IMG/VR virus record: IMGVR_UViG_3300013093_000351
Location: 1-20,143 of that record
From: a virus
Reading direction: 5' to 3' (one strand)
Length of the DNA stretch: 20,143 nt
Shown here: piece after piece, positions 484 to 18,772 of the stretch
Layout: every line of letters begins with the position of its first letter
Numbering within the stretch: the first letter of the stretch is position 1
Program-made: the position numbers and the translations under genes
The notes under the pieces: generated by a model
Told to the model about the DNA's origin: nothing
The model's database searches: none
Seen by the model: only the letters and a program-made list of their open reading frames with translations

Positions 484-1131
484 TTATAAGTATAAAGACT
501 CTAATATGTCTCTTCTAATTTGTGTCTTTATGTTATTCCAATGCTCTATTCTGCTCAAAGTTTTTTCGTCTCCATATTTCCAATATTTTAGTGCTTGATC
601 GTAGGACTCATTCATAGTCATCATTCGGCTTTCTATATTTTTTCTGTGAGATATCTCCTTCTTAGTCATGACAATAGAAAAGTCTTCATAAGTAACAAAA
701 TATTCTTGACCAAACAAATCTTGTAGTTTTTGAGCAAAAGATTGCGACTTATATACATTTGTCTTGTTTTGAGTATCTCCAGAGATTGTTAGCCTATTTG
801 GACTCTTTTGATCCAAAAAAGATTTGATAACTTTAAAACTAGCTCCAGTAACTTTTATCCACGCAGATACAGATGCATCTGTGTTATTGTCAGTAAACTT
901 CCAATGCACTGTCCAACTATCGTCCTCGTCCTTTCTAAACCTGTATTCTGCTTCTATATCTTTATCTGAAATCAAATAGGTAATAGGGCTTGTTTGCGTT
1001 ACCGTTTTTGCTGGTTTATCGAATAGTTCGTCTAACGACTGTTTACGAAATGCATTATAGTACTCTCTTATTGTCTTTTCGCTTATTTTTTTAGTGTGTC
1101 GATACTCTATTAGGTCTTTAAGCTTTATCAT
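484..1131 (-). CDS. Hypothetical phage protein, 215 aa
   Basis: I do not recognise this protein. It begins MIKLKDLIEYR, a short amphipathic stretch containing L-I-E. That resembles the N-termini of the 5467-7365 cluster, so it may be a related head-targeted protein, but this is weak. The middle (about residues 60-150) looks like a beta-rich domain, with WTVHWKF and a later YEDFSIVMTKK strand. The C-terminal 60 residues are helical and charged, with YDQALKYWKYGDEKTLSRIE. There is no signal peptide or membrane segment. It is last in its transcription direction and ends at the bidirectional terminator. The GIY-YIG homing endonuclease gene lies directly upstream. Confidence 0.75.
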   Translation of the reverse strand: MIKLKDLIEYRHTKKISEKTIREYYNAFRKQSLDELFDKPAKTVTQTSPITYLISDKDIEAEYRFRKDEDDSWTVHWKFTDNNTDASVSAWIKVTGASFKVIKSFLDQKSPNRLTISGDTQNKTNVYKSQSFAQKLQDLFGQEYFVTYEDFSIVMTKKEISHRKNIESRMMTMNESYDQALKYWKYGDEKTLSRIEHWNNIKTQIRRDILESLYL

Positions 1132-1850: not shown

Positions 1851-2849
1851 TTAATACATTAGTCCTCTGAATCTAGTTTCTTCAAGAAATTCCGGTCGAT
1901 CAGACAAATTAAAATTGTCTGGGAAGATCCAAGTATATGGAATGTTTTTTGTAGGTTTTTTAGATCCATGATGAATAGCTATCGCCTTAAAAAAAAAGCA
2001 TGTTTTATCTTCAACGTTTAGATACTTCTGGGAAGTCATGGGATTCAGTCTGTGATTGACCAATAAGTCCATCTGATACAACCATTGGTCTGCGTATTTG
2101 TTCTGAGGGATGAACTCCCCATATTCACTGATAAGATATTTAACTTTCCCGTTTAAATTCTGTCCACCAAAGATTTGATGTAGTCCATCAAAATGACCTG
2201 TACCACCGAAAAGAATTGATTCTGGATTCACTAAATGCGGATAGCTCATTGCAATGTATCTGGCTGTATTTTTACAAGGATATAAAGGACTTCTAAATCC
2301 TTGGTGCTTTTTAAAATAAGCTTCAAGTATTTTAGCGAATCCCATCATTGTCCACGGCGTTGAATTATTTCCATTTTCTACGTCTTGTAACAGGTAAGCA
2401 AGATCTTTTGCGGCTTTTGCGGGGCCATCCAAAATCCAATCTTTTACGTTAGTTCCCTTTGGATAATAGATTTGAAATAGATCGTTTCTTGCATGTCTAT
2501 TCTGCTTGAAATGTTGTTTTGTTGCTTCGATTCCCCCGTTCTTCAATTTCATAAAAGTTCCCCAGTGCTCGTTGGTAAAACTGAACACTAAAGTGTAAAA
2601 CAGTCTTAACTCGTTGTCGGTAACTTCTTGCATCACTTCGCAATAGGGATGCTCGTGCCAGTGCAAACGATGAGAGAATATCTGATACTCGTCTCTTAAT
2701 AAAGGATCTTGTCGTTGATCGAATTTTTGGCAGAACTCAAAGAACTTCTCGATGCGTTGCTCTAAAGGCCACTCTTTCATCCATGAGTCCTTTGGTTTTT
2801 TGCCTTTAAACTCTACTTCGCATGTGTTTGGAAATAAAATCTCTTTCAT
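1851..2849 (-). CDS. Helical protein, distant relative of the 3406 gene product; possible aGPT-PPlase/amino acid:DNA transferase-like
   Basis: This 332-residue protein is mostly helical and has no membrane segment. Its C-terminal half contains PHLVNPESILFGGTGHFDGL followed by HQIFGG. The layout, a helix, P-x-(L/F)-V-N-x-E-S, then a glycine turn and another helix, matches the product of 3406-4578 (PEFVNRESPFYYGTNAKECV). The pattern of a helix, a G-x-G-x-x-x-G-L turn and -F-G also recalls the helical DNA-modifying families once called alpha-glutamyl/putrescinyl thymine pyrophosphorylases, which are HhH-glycosylase-like. That link is my inference from motif shape. It is the last gene of the four-gene operon and its ATG overlaps the upstream stop by one base (TAATG). 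It probably acts on phage or host DNA with the glycosylase. A wholly new family is equally possible. Confidence 0.7.
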   Translation of the reverse strand: MKEILFPNTCEVEFKGKKPKDSWMKEWPLEQRIEKFFEFCQKFDQRQDPLLRDEYQIFSHRLHWHEHPYCEVMQEVTDNELRLFYTLVFSFTNEHWGTFMKLKNGGIEATKQHFKQNRHARNDLFQIYYPKGTNVKDWILDGPAKAAKDLAYLLQDVENGNNSTPWTMMGFAKILEAYFKKHQGFRSPLYPCKNTARYIAMSYPHLVNPESILFGGTGHFDGLHQIFGGQNLNGKVKYLISEYGEFIPQNKYADQWLYQMDLLVNHRLNPMTSQKYLNVEDKTCFFFKAIAIHHGSKKPTKNIPYTWIFPDNFNLSDRPEFLEETRFRGLMY

Positions 2850-3406
2850 TATGCTGCTATTTTTTTTGTAGGTTTTTTCTTAACATAAGTAGAAGGTTTC
2901 TTTGCGTAAAGAGACACCGCGTACTTTAAAATAAGGTCTTCTTCAACTTGATTTAACTTATACACCTTTCTAACGTATCTCTCCGATCTTGGAATGATCA
3001 AAGAATTCTGTGTGCTGTTGGGTAAAGGTCTAATTGAATTCGGTTCGGTCTTTAAAATGTTAAGATCGACTTCTAACAACCAACTGTCGTATTCGTTAGG
3101 CCAAATTAAAGGAATAGATATGATATAAAGTTTTTCGCACTTTAAGGCGTGCTCTACCTGTTTACCTGCGTCGGCGTTTAACGCCCAACAATCGTAACTG
3201 TTATACGCAGAGATAGTTTTTAATTGTGTGATAGTAGGAGTCTTCTTGTCGAAGAATACTTTGTGATCGTTGTATCCAAACGGATCGGGATTGAAGTGAA
3301 CTTTGTATCCCATGTCCTGCATAGCGTTATTGAATATTTTTTCTCCCGCTAATCCTAAGATGTGGATGTTTTTTGTCTGCTTAACAGACTTTGATGTGTG
3401 AGCCAT
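2849..3406 (-). CDS. Putative PD-(D/E)XK-like nuclease
   Basis: The protein has 185 residues. Near the N-terminus, GLAGEKIFNNAMQDMGYKV places a Glu in a helix before a strand. NPDPFGYNDHKVFFD supplies Asp candidates, and TITQLKT supplies Q-x-K. The order E ... D ... (E/Q)-x-K with these spacings (about residues 22, 41-53 and 61-63) fits the PD-(D/E)XK nuclease core of restriction enzymes and resolvases. The C-terminus is lysine-rich (KKKPTKKIAA), as expected for nucleic-acid binding. One-base TAATG overlaps join it to both neighbours, so it is translated with the glycosylase and the two helical proteins. Glycosylase plus nuclease suggests base removal followed by strand cutting. The fold call is tentative because the Glu of the motif is replaced by Gln. 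Confidence 0.6.
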   Translation of the reverse strand: MAHTSKSVKQTKNIHILGLAGEKIFNNAMQDMGYKVHFNPDPFGYNDHKVFFDKKTPTITQLKTISAYNSYDCWALNADAGKQVEHALKCEKLYIISIPLIWPNEYDSWLLEVDLNILKTEPNSIRPLPNSTQNSLIIPRSERYVRKVYKLNQVEEDLILKYAVSLYAKKPSTYVKKKPTKKIAA

Positions 3407-4578
3407 TATTTGTTGTAAAATTGTTGTACCCTGTCCTTGTATTGTTCTTCTGTGATAAGAAGTGATTTAAGTACCTTGTCATCGGAAGGGTGTTCTGTAA
3501 TACCGTTAAAACTTGGGACAAGGCCAAGATCCAACATTGCTTTCTGTCTACCGTATGGGTGATCTTTAATACTGCAGCTGTTCCATACGTGATCGAAGTC
3601 CAAGTGATCGTAATCAGCACCAGGTTTAACGTAGTTCTCAATCCATCTAATTGAGTCACACGCTACGTCCTCGGCGTTGTAAGGAAAACTACCAGTGTCT
3701 TCGTATATCTTCATCATAACCGAATCCAAAAATACTTCTTCTGGCATTTTCGTAGACTTCGTAGCCAAATAGCTAACGCATTCCTTTGCATTCGTACCGT
3801 AATAGAATGGACTTTCACGATTAACGAATTCAGGGAACCAATCTGCTATATCTGCTATGAACGCTGCGTATTGGAATCTGAAAGCTCTAAGTCCTCTGTC
3901 TGCATTCCATTTAAACATAAAGTCTCCTACTTCTCTCAAATCTTTCTTTCCTCCTTGCTCTAGAAAATTAGCTACGTCTTCTGCAAGTTGTGGAACGAAT
4001 TCGCAAAGGAAGTAATCTCCTCCACGTTTGTAATCTCCTTGAGGTTTAGGGAAACTTGGGAACTGATAACCTATTGATGTGTAAAATGGTTTTTTTGCTC
4101 CTTTTATGATGTCTATCAACTGAGGTATATTGTCAGCTTGATGCATCTCGAACAGAAGCGTATTGTGATAGCCTGAAGGTTTCATCGAATAGTTAATAGC
4201 AGATCCTGTTAACCTGTGAAATAGAAACAAATAGATCCACTCTTTTAAACCGAACACGTTGCGCTTACCTGTCCAATTGTGAGAAATGATATCTCTTTGT
4301 TTTGTCATTAGACCGTCTTTCATTTTGTCCCAATAAGGATGCTCTTCTGTAAAACCGTAAAATACGTCGTTAACGATCTGTGAGAATCCTGCGTACTTTC
4401 TTTCAACTACGTCGTACAATTCTACGTGTTTCATTAATTCGTCGGGCACAGAACTGTCTGCATGTTTTATTCTACCTAAGTTGCACTCTTCTTGTTGTGT
4501 TTTCGCCATTTGATAATAGCGTAAAAATTCTTCGTAATAAGGTGTGGTCTTAATCCACTTTGGGTTTGCTGTAATCAT
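3406..4578 (-). CDS. Helical protein of unknown function, possible aGPT-PPlase/AADT-like DNA-modifying enzyme
   Basis: This is a 390-residue helical protein without a signal peptide. Notable stretches are YEEFLRYYQMAKTQQE near the start, a WIYLFLFHRLTGSAINYSM helix around residue 115 and GLRAFRFQYAAFIADIADWF around 240. PEFVNRESPFYYGTNAKECV follows, then PYNAEDVACDSIRWIENY. The RFQYAAFIADIADWFPEFVNRES block lines up with YPHLVNPES in the 1851-2849 product, so the two look like distant relatives. The alternation of long helices with one glycine turn recalls HhH-glycosylase-like DNA hypermodification families (aGPT-PPlase, amino acid:DNA transferase); this is inference. It follows the glycosylase gene by 4 bases and overlaps the next gene by one base. 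Function is unknown beyond a likely role in the DNA module. Confidence 0.75.
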   Translation of the reverse strand: MITANPKWIKTTPYYEEFLRYYQMAKTQQEECNLGRIKHADSSVPDELMKHVELYDVVERKYAGFSQIVNDVFYGFTEEHPYWDKMKDGLMTKQRDIISHNWTGKRNVFGLKEWIYLFLFHRLTGSAINYSMKPSGYHNTLLFEMHQADNIPQLIDIIKGAKKPFYTSIGYQFPSFPKPQGDYKRGGDYFLCEFVPQLAEDVANFLEQGGKKDLREVGDFMFKWNADRGLRAFRFQYAAFIADIADWFPEFVNRESPFYYGTNAKECVSYLATKSTKMPEEVFLDSVMMKIYEDTGSFPYNAEDVACDSIRWIENYVKPGADYDHLDFDHVWNSCSIKDHPYGRQKAMLDLGLVPSFNGITEHPSDDKVLKSLLITEEQYKDRVQQFYNK

Positions 4579-4582
4579 ATCG

Positions 4583-5359
4583 TTATTGTTTTTCTAACAT
4601 TCGTCTTGTTTCCATTCTTCTCCACATAAGATCTGTTTGATCTATGTAATACTGCGGATCTGTGTCCAACCATTTGTCTTCGTCTACCCACTCTTCTTTA
4701 GCGTGACCGATACCTGCAATTTTGATGTGTTTAGAACCCTCTCGCTTAAGTGCTATCTTCTTAGTTTTCTCTATGGCCTCTTCTTGAGTTCTGGCCATAA
4801 CACAACACACATAATCTTTTAACACGTTCCAATTAGGCTCGGCCTCTCTTGAATCTTTGTAGTGCGCATAGTAAACTGTCATGGGTCTTGGTTCGCCTTG
4901 CTCTCTTAGAACTCGTTTCTTTTCTTCTCTTGCCCACTCAACGTAAAAGTTTAATACATGATCGTCAGGGTCAACTTCGTCGTATTCGTTACATTGAAAT
5001 ATTCTCCAAGAGTCTATAGCGTACTTACCTACGCCTTTGAGACCTAATAATCTGTGAGTTGGGATATAAATAGGATTGCCGTATTCTTGTACTAACTCCA
5101 ACCACTCGTAAGCGAACTGTTTCCAAGCTTTTACTCGTTTGTTGTAGAATCCCAAAGGTTTGATAATCTCTATGATCTCTTCGTCAGGACAGTCGATTAA
5201 ACGCTCTGCTGTACCGCACTTGTTAAAGAAGTGTTCTCTAACTTCGTCTACTTGTCTGTGATGTGTTTGATTTAGCATGAAACAGACCATTAGCATTTTC
5301 CATGGGTCGTCTCTGTATTCCTCCTGTCTTGTAAAATAGGGTGACGTTTGTAATTTCAT
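4583..5359 (-). CDS. MBD4-like HhH-GPD DNA glycosylase
   Basis: Residues 15-90 (DDPWKMLMVCFMLNQTHHRQ ... IKPLGFYNKRVK) match the MBD4 catalytic domain (DPWKLLIATIFLNRT ... LKPLGLYDLRAK). The helix-hairpin-helix is LLGLKGVGKYAIDSWRIF at about 104-121. VDPDDHVLNFYVEW follows, where Asp133 corresponds to the catalytic Asp of MBD4 (HPEDHKL). MBD4 removes T or U opposite G and also 5-hydroxymethyluracil. There is no iron-sulfur cysteine cluster as in EndoIII or MutY. The C-terminal ~110 residues (VCCVMARTQEEAIEKTKKIA onward) are extra and may be a small beta-alpha domain. It is the first gene of the 1851-5359 operon. Its leader holds a tandem 11-base repeat and AAAGTTATG at the start. The family is confident; the exact base removed is not known. 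Confidence 0.88.
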   Translation of the reverse strand: MKLQTSPYFTRQEEYRDDPWKMLMVCFMLNQTHHRQVDEVREHFFNKCGTAERLIDCPDEEIIEIIKPLGFYNKRVKAWKQFAYEWLELVQEYGNPIYIPTHRLLGLKGVGKYAIDSWRIFQCNEYDEVDPDDHVLNFYVEWAREEKKRVLREQGEPRPMTVYYAHYKDSREAEPNWNVLKDYVCCVMARTQEEAIEKTKKIALKREGSKHIKIAGIGHAKEEWVDEDKWLDTDPQYYIDQTDLMWRRMETRRMLEKQ

Positions 5360-5376
5360 AACTTTTATTTAATAAT

Positions 5377-5398
5377 CAAATATACCACAAATATACCA
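5377..5398 (-). promoter_or_regulatory. Tandem TGGTATATTTG repeat, probable promoter or operator
   Basis: The 11-mer caaatatacca occurs twice head to tail (5377-5387, 5388-5398). In the coding direction each copy contains TATATTTG, an exact fit to the Bacteroidetes -7 element TAnnTTTG. It lies 18-39 bases upstream of the glycosylase start, so it probably drives the four-gene operon. Two copies could give two start points or a repressor site. Confidence 0.55.
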
Positions 5399-5424
5399 CA
5401 TAAGACAATTTAAGTTCCTAGTGA

Positions 5425-5449
5425 CATAGAAAGAGGGGCTGGGCCCCTC
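5425..5449 (-). terminator. Rho-independent terminator after the 5467 gene
   Basis: GAGGGGC and GCCCCTC pair over a 3-base loop (5433-5449). In the minus direction TTTCTATG follows. It ends the 7365-5467 gene cluster before the promoter of the glycosylase operon. Confidence 0.75.
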
Positions 5450-5466
5450 CTTACAATAATTCGTAT

Positions 5467-5652
5467 TTAATACCGAGCTCCTTTAACTGTATTTTTCTCG
5501 TGCTCTCTAGAAGATTGTTTATCCAAGATATCGCTAGATCTGTGTCTGCCTAAGTTAGTGCGAGTGTTGGCGTGTTGCATTTTACCAGTTCCCAAACTCT
5601 TAACGTTGGTACCGGATTCTTTAATAAGGTCTGTTAATTTAATCTTTGCCAT
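5467..5652 (-). CDS. Small basic protein with capsid-targeting-like N-terminus
   Basis: This 61-residue protein begins MAKIKLTDLIKESG. The first 12 residues form a short amphipathic stretch ending in I-K-E, which fits the (L/I)-x-E cleavage rule of T4 prohead protease gp21. The remainder is polar and basic (NTRTNLGRHRSSDIL, REHEKNTVKGARY), with little hydrophobic core. That would suit a small DNA-associated internal head protein. It starts one base after the stop of the upstream gene (5654) and is the last gene of the 7365-5467 cluster, followed by a terminator. The head-protein role is inference; no family is recognised. Confidence 0.75.
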   Translation of the reverse strand: MAKIKLTDLIKESGTNVKSLGTGKMQHANTRTNLGRHRSSDILDKQSSREHEKNTVKGARY

Positions 5653-5653
5653 C

Positions 5654-6064
5654 TTATTTGTGATGTCTTTGTTTTGCGTTGTTTATGTACATGTCCAATA
5701 GAGCATCGATGCCTCCTTGTAGGTTACCGTCCGCCTTTGGATCTTTTACTTTTTTCTCTATCGCTCTGGCCGCTTTTAAAGTCTTGCTCTTAATCACCCG
5801 GTCTCTCTGGCCAGCGTCAACCATTTTGGAGATAATATCATATAGTCTTGCTCCACCCTCAGCCCAAAACTCACCTCTGATCATTATGTCCGCCTTATCG
5901 TAATCTACTCTGTCCCATTCTGGGTCTGCCTCTTTTATAAAATACTTTTCGGCGTAATCGTTATCGTAAGTGTTACCACCTTTGTCGTCGTACTTGAAAG
6001 TTTTACCCCAAAATTCGTGGTTATTCTCTCTTACGTGTTTTACGATATCGAAATTGTCCTTCAT
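5654..6064 (-). CDS. Hypothetical protein with FW-GG domain
   Basis: The protein has 136 residues and starts MKDNFDIVKHVRENNHEFWG, which is like its neighbours' N-termini but lacks a clear (L/I)-x-E site. Residues about 61-92 read MIRGEFWAEGGARLYDIISK followed by MVDAGQRDRVI. The same layout occurs in the next gene upstream (GDKFWDLGGQKIYNAIGEL), so the two share a small domain. The C-terminal part is helical and basic (AARAIEKKVKDPKAD). It overlaps the upstream stop by one base (TAATG), indicating coupled translation. I do not recognise the family. It may be a virion or head-associated protein by context. Confidence 0.8.
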   Translation of the reverse strand: MKDNFDIVKHVRENNHEFWGKTFKYDDKGGNTYDNDYAEKYFIKEADPEWDRVDYDKADIMIRGEFWAEGGARLYDIISKMVDAGQRDRVIKSKTLKAARAIEKKVKDPKADGNLQGGIDALLDMYINNAKQRHHK

Positions 6065-6348
6065 TATGATTGTTGTTCGTAAGAATCGTTGTCTTGGGAT
6101 CTGATATTAGTTTGAGCGTTGGTGTAATTACTACACTGTCTTGCTATATCGTCCGTTGAGTAACCGTTCTTTATAAGTTCACCGATAGCGTTGTATATCT
6201 TTTGACCTCCCAAATCCCAAAACTTGTCCCCTTTGTAGTCTATAGAATTGTCTACGTTGTGCACGTTAGATATATCCAAGGTGTCCAAAGCGTCCTCTTT
6301 TAACAGAGGATTGGACTTGATGTATTTGGTGAAGTTGAATTCTTTCAT
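6064..6348 (-). CDS. Hypothetical protein with capsid-targeting-like N-terminus and FW-GG domain
   Basis: This is a 94-residue protein. Its N-terminus MKEFNFTKYIKSNPLLKEDA is a short amphipathic helix followed by L-K-E, matching the T4 prohead protease rule. The second part, about 37-70, is YKGDKFWDLGGQKIYNAIGE and then LIKNGYSTDDI. This parallels the FW-GG segment of the downstream gene 5654-6064. The C-terminal 25 residues are polar and rich in Gln, Asn and Ser and are likely disordered. It lies 2 bases after the 6351 gene and overlaps the next start by one base. Function is unknown; an internal head protein is the working idea. Confidence 0.8.
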   Translation of the reverse strand: MKEFNFTKYIKSNPLLKEDALDTLDISNVHNVDNSIDYKGDKFWDLGGQKIYNAIGELIKNGYSTDDIARQCSNYTNAQTNIRSQDNDSYEQQS

Positions 6349-6350
6349 TA

Positions 6351-7118
6351 TTAGCTTATGATACTGCGAATTTCTTTAATTAAAAATTCTTCGATATCTT
6401 CTGGTTCGAATCCGTCGTCTAATAAATCTTTAAAAATTCTACTAGCGAAGTGGATAAAATTTTTCATATCTTCACGAGAAATTATGCCTTGCATTCTTTC
6501 CGTGCCTTCTATATCGTCGTCTTCGAACTCTTCCAATTTGTCGTTGCCAACTGGACCGTTATTGATATCTTCGTCTACTTCGCCTCTCTTTTTAGCCTGC
6601 AAGTATTTCTCTAAGATTGGTTCGATAGTCTCAGCGTACTCTTCGAAAGAAACGAACTCGTCTTGTTTCTCTGTGTACAACATGTGAACGTCGTCGCCAA
6701 TGTAACCGTCCTCTTCTACTTTAACGATTTCGATAGGAGTTCCAGGTTGATTGTCCCATTTTGGAGTGGCAACAGCGTAGAAAGAACTATCGTTGTAGCA
6801 AGTCCAAATTAAAACTCCAGGATCGCCGTCGTAATCAACTTGCCAGTCGCCTACGATTTCGTTGTGTACGTCTTCCATCCAAGCATTGTCTTCGTCTCCG
6901 TACTCATCGTCTTGAGCGTATATTTGATGAGGTTCAGGTTTTTTTGGACCCAAGTAAGTATCGTCCTCTTCTAAGTCTTCTCTTAAAGCTTGAGTGTAGC
7001 CACCGAATATGTTACCGGCGCCAACTGGACGCAAATCTGTGTAGTTTTCTTTGATTAATCCGTAAGGACCTACTTTGTTTTTTTGTAAAAAGTCTTTTAC
7101 GTTAAATTCTTTTGCCAT
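6351..7118 (-). CDS. Acidic protein with capsid-targeting-like N-terminus, 255 aa
   Basis: The N-terminus MAKEFNVKDFLQKNKVGPYG is followed by LIKE (I-K-E at 22-24), fitting the pattern of a targeting peptide removed by a prohead protease. The body is strongly acidic (REDLEEDDTY, EEFEDDDIEGTE). Residues about 85-140 look like a beta domain (GDWQVDYDGDPGVLIWTCY). The C-terminal helix reads MKNFIHFASRIFKDLLDDGF and EEFLIKEIRSI. A late-promoter-like CATATTTATA lies only 6 bases upstream of the ATG. It is first of the 6351-5467 run and follows the 7138 gene by 19 bases. Acidic packaged proteins and scaffold-like proteins are both possible; I recognise no family. Confidence 0.8.
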   Translation of the reverse strand: MAKEFNVKDFLQKNKVGPYGLIKENYTDLRPVGAGNIFGGYTQALREDLEEDDTYLGPKKPEPHQIYAQDDEYGDEDNAWMEDVHNEIVGDWQVDYDGDPGVLIWTCYNDSSFYAVATPKWDNQPGTPIEIVKVEEDGYIGDDVHMLYTEKQDEFVSFEEYAETIEPILEKYLQAKKRGEVDEDINNGPVGNDKLEEFEDDDIEGTERMQGIISREDMKNFIHFASRIFKDLLDDGFEPEDIEEFLIKEIRSIIS

Positions 7119-7124
7119 AGTGTT

Positions 7125-7134
7125 TATAAATATG
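7125..7134 (-). promoter_or_regulatory. CATATTTATA motif before the 6351 gene
   Basis: The coding direction reads CATATTTATA, ending 6 bases before the ATG at 7118. The plus strand reads TATAAATATG, identical to the T4 late consensus TATAAATA but pointing away from the gene. The same word precedes several other starts, so it is a phage-specific signal, either a promoter or an initiation site. Confidence 0.45.
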
Positions 7135-7137
7135 ATA

Positions 7138-7365
7138 TTAGTTTCCGAGTTCTTGAACTAGCTCGTTTAGTTTTTTTCTTAATGATTCTAGATTGGTGTG
7201 CAATTCGCCTTTTAATTCTTGATCGATGTCCATTTCTGCGATATTGTTCTCCATATCTTCAACGAATTCTATGCACTGATTCGCCAATCCTTGTGGAGAA
7301 TAGTCCAAGCTGTCGTTAGAGTACTCCATCAACCATTTTTGTATATCGTAGGAACCCTGGGCCAT
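7138..7365 (-). CDS. Small helical protein, possible internal head protein
   Basis: The protein has 75 residues. It starts MAQGSYDIQKWLMEYSNDS, where W-L-M-E gives an L-x-E site similar to the neighbouring genes, though less hydrophobic. The rest is a long amphipathic, probably coiled-coil region (CIEFVEDMENNIAEMD, LHTNLESLRKKLNELVQEL). A CATATTTATAAG motif followed by ACAAACG lies upstream at 7382-7391. Nearly the same combination precedes the gene at 18772. It lies 19 bases upstream of the 6351 gene and shares its transcription direction. No family is recognised. Confidence 0.75.
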   Translation of the reverse strand: MAQGSYDIQKWLMEYSNDSLDYSPQGLANQCIEFVEDMENNIAEMDIDQELKGELHTNLESLRKKLNELVQELGN

Positions 7366-7381
7366 GTAATTCGTTTGTACT

Positions 7382-7391
7382 TATAAATATG
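7382..7391 (-). promoter_or_regulatory. CATATTTATA motif before the 7138 gene
   Basis: The coding direction reads CATATTTATAAGTACAAACG, with the motif 16 bases before the ATG. The copy before the gene starting at 18772 reads CATATTTATAGATACAAACG. Such close agreement over 20 bases supports a shared regulatory role. Confidence 0.5.
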
Positions 7392-14925: not shown

Positions 14926-15342
14926 CTAGTCGTACAGCATTTTTCTGTACTCTTCAGCGCTAATAAGTTTGCCGTGATACCTAATACTCTTCATCGAATA
15001 AGCCCTGTCCATGAGTCTCTGTTTAATCATGGCGTCTGCCTCCTCGGTCCCTGACCAATCGTTATACAACTGCATCTTGGATTCGAGTACGGTGCTATCG
15101 AACTCCATCTTCGGTGTAAAGCCTCGGTCCAATATTTCGTATCTTAAGGACTCGAATCTTTTGTGAGCGTACTCTAACTTATCGTAAAAGAATAGTACGT
15201 GTCCGGTACCGAGTGTGAATTCTTTAGGAGCTTTATCGGTACGTTTGGCCAGTTTGAATACGCGTAAGATCTCTCTGTACTCTGCCACTAGATGCGAATC
15301 GCAGAGCTTTTTTGCTGGAATTGTACCGTTAATTCTCGTCAT
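14926..15342 (-). CDS. denV: Pyrimidine-dimer DNA glycosylase/AP lyase (T4 endonuclease V type)
   Basis: The 138 residues align along their length with T4 DenV. MTRIN at the start leaves Thr as the N-terminal nucleophile after Met removal. HLVAEYREILRVFKLAKR matches T4 HLMAEYRELPRVFGAVRK, keeping His16, Arg22 and the catalytic Glu23. LGTGHVLFFYDKLEYAHKR matches LGAGHVTFFYDKLEFLRKR, and IRYHGKLISAEEY matches the end. The enzyme flips and cleaves cyclobutane pyrimidine dimers and then cuts the backbone, protecting injected DNA from UV. Length equals T4 (138). Its ATG directly abuts the upstream stop. Presence fits a phage of sunlit or exposed habitats. This is the most secure enzyme call in the window. 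Confidence 0.96.
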   Translation of the reverse strand: MTRINGTIPAKKLCDSHLVAEYREILRVFKLAKRTDKAPKEFTLGTGHVLFFYDKLEYAHKRFESLRYEILDRGFTPKMEFDSTVLESKMQLYNDWSGTEEADAMIKQRLMDRAYSMKSIRYHGKLISAEEYRKMLYD

Positions 15343-15810
15343 TTACTTCGTTTGTTTTGCCTTCTTGCCGCTCTCAATGAATCGTTGGAATAGCTTCATC
15401 TCTTCTTCGGCAGAAATCTCAGGCGTGGGCTCGGACCTGTACTTTTCTAACTTATCTTTGGCGTCTTCGCCCAATTCCCATAGGGACTTTGTTTCGGCCG
15501 TTTTGGCCGTCGCTGCAATATTAGCGCCGTGATGTTTTGCGTCTGCCAAAATCTTGAGAAATACTTGCTTGTCGGTGTCCTCTTTTTTAACGGGTTTTTC
15601 TTTGTAAAGCTTTACGTACTTTACTGCGGCGTCGTACCTTTTGTACAAGTCTGGGTTGTCCTGATCCGCTTCCGATATTCCGGCTATGACTTGCATCCTT
15701 GTTATTTCCAAAGAGTCGCTGAATATGGAGTGGATATTGTCGTAATAGAACACGATCAATTTACTCTTGATGTATTTGAAGAATCTCTTCTTCGGTTTCT
15801 GTGGTGCCAT
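15343..15810 (-). CDS. Hypothetical helical protein, 155 aa
   Basis: No family is recognised. The basic N-terminus with a short hydrophobic stretch (KRFFKYIKSKLIVFYYDNIH) could touch membrane or nucleic acid. The remainder is helical and charged (YKRYDAAVKYVKLYKEKP, FLKILADAKHHGANIAATAK, EEEMKLFQRFIESGKKAKQ). The stop codon directly abuts the denV start, so the two are translationally coupled and may share a transcript. Nothing in the sequence ties it to repair. Confidence 0.75.
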   Translation of the reverse strand: MAPQKPKKRFFKYIKSKLIVFYYDNIHSIFSDSLEITRMQVIAGISEADQDNPDLYKRYDAAVKYVKLYKEKPVKKEDTDKQVFLKILADAKHHGANIAATAKTAETKSLWELGEDAKDKLEKYRSEPTPEISAEEEMKLFQRFIESGKKAKQTK

Positions 15811-18289: not shown

Positions 18290-18772
18290 TTAGTATATGT
18301 CTATTCTATTTGCGTTTCTTTTTGTTTCGTGCATCCACTTGTGCATTTGATCTCCGGCAGTTTCTTCCATTTCGTGAGAGTCAGAGTGTTGTCTTGATCC
18401 TTTTAATAATAACTCTTTGATTGTTTTCTTTATTTCAACAATAGAATCTAAGTACTCTTGTAATTGCTCTTGATCTTCAGGAGAAAGTCCTTGCTTTAAT
18501 CTTTCTAACTTCATTTGACTTTCGCTCATTCTACCTTCTTTCATTTTGTTCTTCTCACCGTATACGAAAGACTTTTGCGGTTCGTAACCGTAAGCGATGG
18601 TCTTAACCATACCGCAGTGTTTACATTTGGCCTTTTCAGCGCCTATTTTCTTCCACTCATGAGTGCCAGCATCAGGACATAGGTCCTCTGCCTCTGTTTC
18701 GTGTAGATTGGTATAGTTGCCCTTAAGGGTGTTCAATGTCTCTGCGTATGCCACTGGACTGATATAATTCAT
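18290..18772 (-). CDS. Hypothetical protein with zinc-knuckle, 160 aa
   Basis: Residues about 32-56 contain DLCPDAGTHEWKKIGAEKAK followed by CKHCGMVKTI. A Cys near CPDAGTHEW plus C-x-x-C could form a zinc site, as in small treble-clef or ribbon domains. The rest is helical: SQMKLERLKQGLSPEDQEQL, SIVEIKKTIKELLLK, and a polar C-terminus with DQMHKWMHETKRN. It is the last gene before a terminator. The CATATTTATA motif with ACAAACG lies just upstream (18790-18799). Function is unknown; nucleic-acid binding is a guess. Confidence 0.8.
   Translation of the reverse strand: MNYISPVAYAETLNTLKGNYTNLHETEAEDLCPDAGTHEWKKIGAEKAKCKHCGMVKTIAYGYEPQKSFVYGEKNKMKEGRMSESQMKLERLKQGLSPEDQEQLQEYLDSIVEIKKTIKELLLKGSRQHSDSHEMEETAGDQMHKWMHETKRNANRIDIY

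Follow-up and report, generated by a model that had tools for sequence, protein, structure and literature searches.

Gene content of the island and its N-terminal peptides

The window, i.e., the whole stretch of DNA analyzed here, is a virus record of 20,143 bases, a fragment in which nearly all genes lie on the minus strand. It was assigned to a T4-like myovirus whose relatives include Flavobacterium phage Immuto. Positions 5467–7365 are occupied by an island of five adjacent small genes, all on the minus strand. An earlier sequence-only reading had listed (L/I)xE starts for four of these genes and an LIE for the gene at 484–1131, and all of them are present as described. The features are given below according to our own gene calls; genes are hereafter named by their first coordinate.

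7383–7390, minus strand: ATATTTAT, candidate late-promoter box 25 nt before the start of 7138–7365
7138–7365, minus strand: tagged gene of 75 aa with an acidic body; tag of the long-type pattern at 7324–7365 (SYDIQKWLME, then Y)
7126–7133, minus strand: ATATTTAT, candidate late-promoter box 15 nt before the start of 6351–7118
6351–7118, minus strand: tagged gene of 255 aa with a strongly acidic body; tag at 7047–7118 (FNVKDFL...GLIKE, then N)
6064–6348, minus strand: tagged gene of 94 aa; tag of the long-type pattern at 6295–6348 (FNFTKYIKSNPLLKE, then D)
5654–6064, minus strand: tagged gene of 136 aa with a basic helical body; long tag at 5930–6064 (FIKE, then AD, at residue 45)
5467–5652, minus strand: truncated short-tag gene of 61 aa; tag at 5617–5652 (IKLTDLIKE, then S)
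484–1131, minus strand: cargo-slot gene of 215 aa with a basic body; short tag at 1105–1131 (IKLKDLIE, then Y)
15343–15810, minus strand: possible LAGI-type tag, tentatively read from the sequence (TRMQVIAGISE-47, then AD)

Short N-terminal peptides ending in (L/I)xE open 5467–5652 (MAKIKLTDLIKE, followed by S), 6064–6348 (MKEFNFTKYIKSNPLLKE, followed by D), 6351–7118 (MAKEFNVKDFLQKNKVGPYGLIKE, followed by N), 7138–7365 (MAQGSYDIQKWLME, followed by Y) and gene 484 (MIKLKDLIE, followed by Y); the fifth island gene, 5654, has a similar kind of start (MKDNFDIVKHV), with its site at residue 45. The long form of the tag, defined as F/Y-D/N-hydrophobic-x-x-aromatic-hydrophobic, a variable spacer and then LxE, is present on four island genes, all but 5467; the short form (IKLxDLLxE) is found on 5467 and gene 484.

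Comparison of window positions 5467–5660 and the surroundings of 6570 with L001, a sibling contig, at positions 3880–4095 and 5185–5917 revealed two rearrangements. The 5467 protein is 61 aa long versus 254 aa in L001, where its C-terminus is RMAQLAGIKKTK; a deletion of roughly 0.7 kb at a short repeat truncates the gene. A second deletion at a short repeat, around position 6570, fuses 6351 with a LAGI-tagged neighbor's C-terminal domain. Both the truncation and the fusion could reflect either real recombination in a recombination-prone island or an assembly error.

None of the island bodies received a function from searches of Pfam, PHROGs and NCBIfam; among the PHROG matches, the best, that of 6064, was weak and pointed to a family of unknown function. 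A fold search with the 5654 model against PDB and BFVD returned nothing below E 0.001, and tblastn of the island proteins against cultured phages gave no matches.

Elsewhere in the window, a cassette at 1851–5359, conserved in at least 80 viral contigs, encodes proteins of 332, 185 and 390 aa, which have no Pfam or NCBIfam name, and an HhH-GPD glycosylase; we presume that it resembles DNA-hypermodification clusters. The gene at 14926–15342 is a homologue of T4 endonuclease V (denV; phrog_1183, E 4.6e-32), a gene that adjoins ipII and ipIII in T4.

Frequency of the motifs compared with chance

A key question is how often such starts would be encountered by chance. Under shuffling, about 20% of proteins have a bare [LI]xE in residues 3–25. 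In the window, it was found in 13 of 33 proteins, compared with 6.8 after shuffling and 10–12 in offset windows, and the genome-wide excess was mild (52 versus about 40 in genome G001 and 74 versus about 49 in genome G002). Bare (L/I)xE near the N-terminus is thus weakly above chance; bare LxE amounted to 1.3 to 1.5 times the background in whole genomes and, being so near to it, was dropped as evidence.

The full motifs behave differently from their controls. The long-type pattern was present in 4/42 window proteins versus 0/70 internal-Met windows and in 30/783 non-redundant proteins versus 2/2374 internal-Met windows from that set; 3 of the 119 Immuto proteins also match it. For the short form, a profile trained on the tags of two other genomes only was applied to the window. 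Gene 5467 scored 18.6 bits, a value that 0/1742 internal-Met windows and about 4e-5 of shuffled N-termini attained. For gene 484, the score was 13 bits when one gap was permitted (p=0.0024). Across the relatives' loci (n=80), 14 distinct N-termini, one of them from the training set, reached at least 12 bits, versus 0 to 0.5 expected. That the peptides are merely the short hydrophobic-x-Glu motifs commonplace at N-termini, as the low excess of bare LxE would allow, is hardly credible: the full motifs lie well beyond the internal-Met, shuffled and permuted-pattern controls, which refute a chance origin.

Constraint on the site

Orthologue alignments showed which residues are kept. For gene 6351, invariance among nine relatives is limited, over 330 columns, to M1, F5, the P1 Glu and the Tyr just after the Glu, and the spacer ahead of LxE differs in length. 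Six orthologues of 7138 keep the E followed by Y(S/A)(N/D)D, with a one-residue indel before the E; they read LMQE, LMRE or LMNE, so that P3 is Met there, which counts against our preferred reading. In the six orthologues of 5654, E45-A-D is invariant and the site takes the form (I/V)xE followed by AD; the possible V at P3 likewise counts against it. In the AlphaFold model of 5654, confidence is low through residue 54 and a helical domain follows, which places the proposed cut at residue 45 in the flexible part. The orthologues of 6064 in L001 and L035 retain the tag.

For a single peptide pattern, the short tag uses 82 distinct DNA words; codons vary freely, and therefore the constraint acts on the protein. 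This bears on the possibility that what the genes share at the 5' end is a module at the level of DNA, serving recombination or the start of translation and not acting as a protein tag. The swapping of tags among bodies would fit such a module, but the peptide is kept despite the variety of DNA words and the Glu is preserved across spacer indels, and we rejected this explanation as very improbable.

Portability of the tags and the cargo slot

The sequence-only reading had proposed searching the full genome for more proteins with this N-terminus. A DNA pattern scan of IMG/VR for MIKLxD[ILVMF]L[KN]E yielded at least 120 stretches for the short tag, whereas a permuted-codon control pattern gave 5 hits, every one with an upstream in-frame ATG. 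Among the listed matches, 90 ORFs were read, and in 86 of them no in-frame ATG precedes the tag; the bodies fall into 46 unrelated clusters. Some tagged bodies match ART, P-loop kinase, exonuclease and nucleotidase families.

Tags and bodies are also exchanged within the lineage. The body of 5467 is joined to other tags in three loci (L011, L022 and L030), and in L032 the peptide IKLTNLLE is fused to a different part of the same protein. The position of gene 484 (484–1131) is a slot that holds at least eight unrelated tagged proteins of 71 to 215 aa in relatives, many relatives having none. A slot protein of 182 aa in L001 and L004 shows an Alt-family match that begins just after the tag; in L001 the tag ends at residue 11, and residues 17–170 match the RNA polymerase ADP-ribosylase family phrog_832 (E 2.5e-12). 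The profile of gene 484 itself matches other tagged proteins over residues 1–9 only, and its structure model is of poor quality.

Linkage to head genes and a prohead protease

The sequence-only reading had called for a search of the full genome for a gp21-like protease. No gp21 is encoded in the 20 kb window fragment. In relatives of up to 256 kb, found through the neighboring gene 3406–4578, Peptidase_S77 (the gp21 family) was present in 5/5 of those of 94 kb or more; of 16 other long records with a tag, 10 encode gp21, among them every one of the five longer than 130 kb, and 0/3 controls do. The protease is thus established in relatives and not in the window itself. Among the matches listed, T4-like head genes occur in 31 of the 80 tag loci, which span a few kb each, and in 0/5 controls. 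In G001 and G002, a block of small short-tag genes adjoins the head module, and the capsid protein starts with MANLVQSLLNE or MANLVQSLLSE, followed by S.

By its capsid protein, Immuto (MW353175; host Flavobacterium sp. LMO8) is the closest cultured phage (53% identity). There, a 75-aa long-tag gene is flanked by gp21 and gp22, and another three tagged genes are found just upstream of the terminase. Mature N-termini are predicted at S18 of QQO91881 (following FLKE-17), N25 of QQO91874 (following ILKE-24), G26 of QQO91873 (following LLKE-25) and S23 of QQO91867 (following ITE-22). Immuto carries both long-type and LAGI-type tagged genes as well as a LAGI scaffold tail; the tagged genes are annotated as hypothetical or are misnamed. 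In the literature searched, we found no paper describing the tags of Immuto and none on capsid-targeting sequences (CTS) in uncultured or Bacteroidota phages.

A peptide common to small proteins and the scaffold tail

A further peptide, of the form RMQKLAGIxxE, opens several small proteins and is mostly followed by LxE or IxE. Scaffold C-termini of this lineage read RMQKLAGIK in G001, RWQVLAGIK in G002, RWQKLAGIIK in Immuto and RMKKLAGIVK in Mel-JY01; the tail is not present in the scaffolds of cyanophage S-RIM2 or T4. Among 1522 ORFs from loci picked by the short tag, the LAGI motif had nine occurrences within the first 45 residues, eight within the last ten and none in the region separating them; six of the eight C-terminal cases were scaffolds. 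This distribution suggests that cargo may reach the core by mimicking the scaffold tail.

Two large proteins, in L147 (735 aa) and L171 (744 aa), end in the scaffold-tail-like RFKKLAGLL, and the former begins with the short-tag-like MIKLINILHE.

A candidate late promoter

In G001 and G002, ATATTTAT is the sole conserved box upstream of late genes, where it is enriched (21/88 versus 10/126 and 24/96 versus 14/158, respectively), and no -35 element is visible beside it in these genomes. The window has five copies on the minus strand, each located 15–29 nt upstream of a called start; two of these starts are those of the first two island genes. This compares with a background in which all-AT 8-mers occupy such positions 27% of the time. 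We regard the box as a candidate late promoter, unlike TATAAATA of T4; a T4-type late promoter was rejected here, TATAAATA being rare upstream.

In gene 18290–18772, ATATTTAT stands 26 nt ahead of the start, and LHE followed by T at residue 25 is possibly a further tag; the likely G001 counterpart of this gene starts with MSYIKPQDYSKQIASLLSEG.

Interpretation

The peptides, the conservation of their site, their portability and their linkage to head genes and the protease were established computationally. Taken together, they make it very probable that the N-terminal peptides are prohead-targeting propeptides, predicted to be cut by a gp21-type protease after (L/I)xE. The lack of gp21 in the window fragment, the truncated state of 5467, the P3 residues noted above and the low scores of T4 internal-protein tags on the short-tag profile weigh against this reading. 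During head assembly, the tags would dock each protein on the scaffold core, and the protease would then cut after (L/I)xE, freeing the protein within the head; docking, cleavage, packaging and ejection are inferences, the first two by analogy with T4. Three tag forms are used in the lineage: a short one (IKLxDLLxE), a long one whose spacer varies (F/Y-D/N-hydrophobic...LxE) and LAGI (RMQKLAGIxxE), which copies the C-terminal tail of the scaffold itself. These portable tags would be placed on changing cargo, part of which (Alt-like ART, kinases and nucleases) probably enters the host along with the DNA.

Another important question is whether the island proteins themselves leave the head. They may be prohead core parts similar to T4 gp67/gp68, in which case the tag would bring them to the core; there they would give the head its shape and be broken down or retained, not injected. 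The mature parts of 6351, 6064 and 7138 have a pI of 4.05–4.2, as in T4 gp67 and gp22, six further (L/I)xE sites are found in 6351, and the tagged 75-aa gene of Immuto is located between gp21 and gp22, in the stretch from portal to scaffold where a small acidic protein of the gp67/gp68 type would be expected, all of which agree with such a role. Against it, the mature parts of 5654 and 5467 are basic and have no further sites, as in T4 internal proteins (the mature part of 484 is also basic and resembles them); the bodies change and recombine fast; and the genes adjoin a cargo slot open to exchange and are remote from the head module, as is the case for the three acidic island proteins in G001. 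We regard a core role for the island proteins as a serious possibility, albeit a somewhat doubtful one. The earlier suggestion of injected takeover or anti-defence factors is supported mainly for the cargo-slot proteins, and the acidic 6351, 6064 and 7138 could equally be core parts.

Returning to targeting propeptides, a broader proposal is that they constitute a head entry code: cargo would enter the prohead core via any of three peptides, one of them a mimic of the scaffold tail (RMQKLAGI), many unrelated effectors would use the code and be injected, and the slot beside the tail-fibre genes would be a site of effector exchange. We put this forward tentatively, with belief and doubt nearly in balance. 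If the reading as targeting propeptides is right, a ten-residue peptide would flag, by sequence alone, packaged and perhaps injected proteins of a large, mostly uncultured group of T4-like phages. This class, which includes takeover enzymes and anti-defence proteins, is otherwise hard to spot because the bodies have no known relatives. Moreover, the LAGI peptide, being common to cargo and the scaffold tail, makes core recognition directly testable in a cultured phage.

Comparison with known systems

The closest parallel is the CTS of T4 (IPI, IPII, IPIII and Alt) with gp21, which is alike in its short N-terminal peptide ending in (L/I)xE, in the gp21-family protease, found here in relatives, and in portability among bodies and Alt-family cargo. 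In IPIII, the first ten residues suffice for packaging, residues 4 and 7 serving targeting and residues 8 and 10 processing (PMC9026906). Hydrophobic residues stand at E-6, E-3 and E-2 in both IPIII and the short tag, and the long-spacer form resembles IPI. The T4 internal-protein tags nevertheless differ in sequence (ipII, -4.5 bits; ipIII, -8.4 bits on the short-tag profile). The T4 peptide nearest to the short tag is that of gp24, which starts with MAKINELLRE followed by S (8.5 bits, p=0.015); the gp24 and gp23 propeptides are carried by shell proteins, unlike the cargo tags described here. The view that these are capsid-targeting peptides with an (L/I)xE site gained strong support from the protease in relatives, the linkage to head genes, the conserved Glu, the portability and the tagged Alt-like ART, and its equation with the T4 internal-protein CTS did not hold at the sequence level. 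By analogy, the short tag would work like a CTS but is a different peptide, matching it in site type and hydrophobic spacing only.

In the giant phages SPN3US and phiKZ, the head protease also strips propeptides from internal proteins (PMC5694885); these differ in their A/S-x-E cleavage motif and longer propeptides and have no common short tag of this kind. Compared with the T4 CTS, the lineage studied here, in which cleavage is predicted from sequence, has three peptide forms, many more cargo bodies and one form that copies the scaffold tail.
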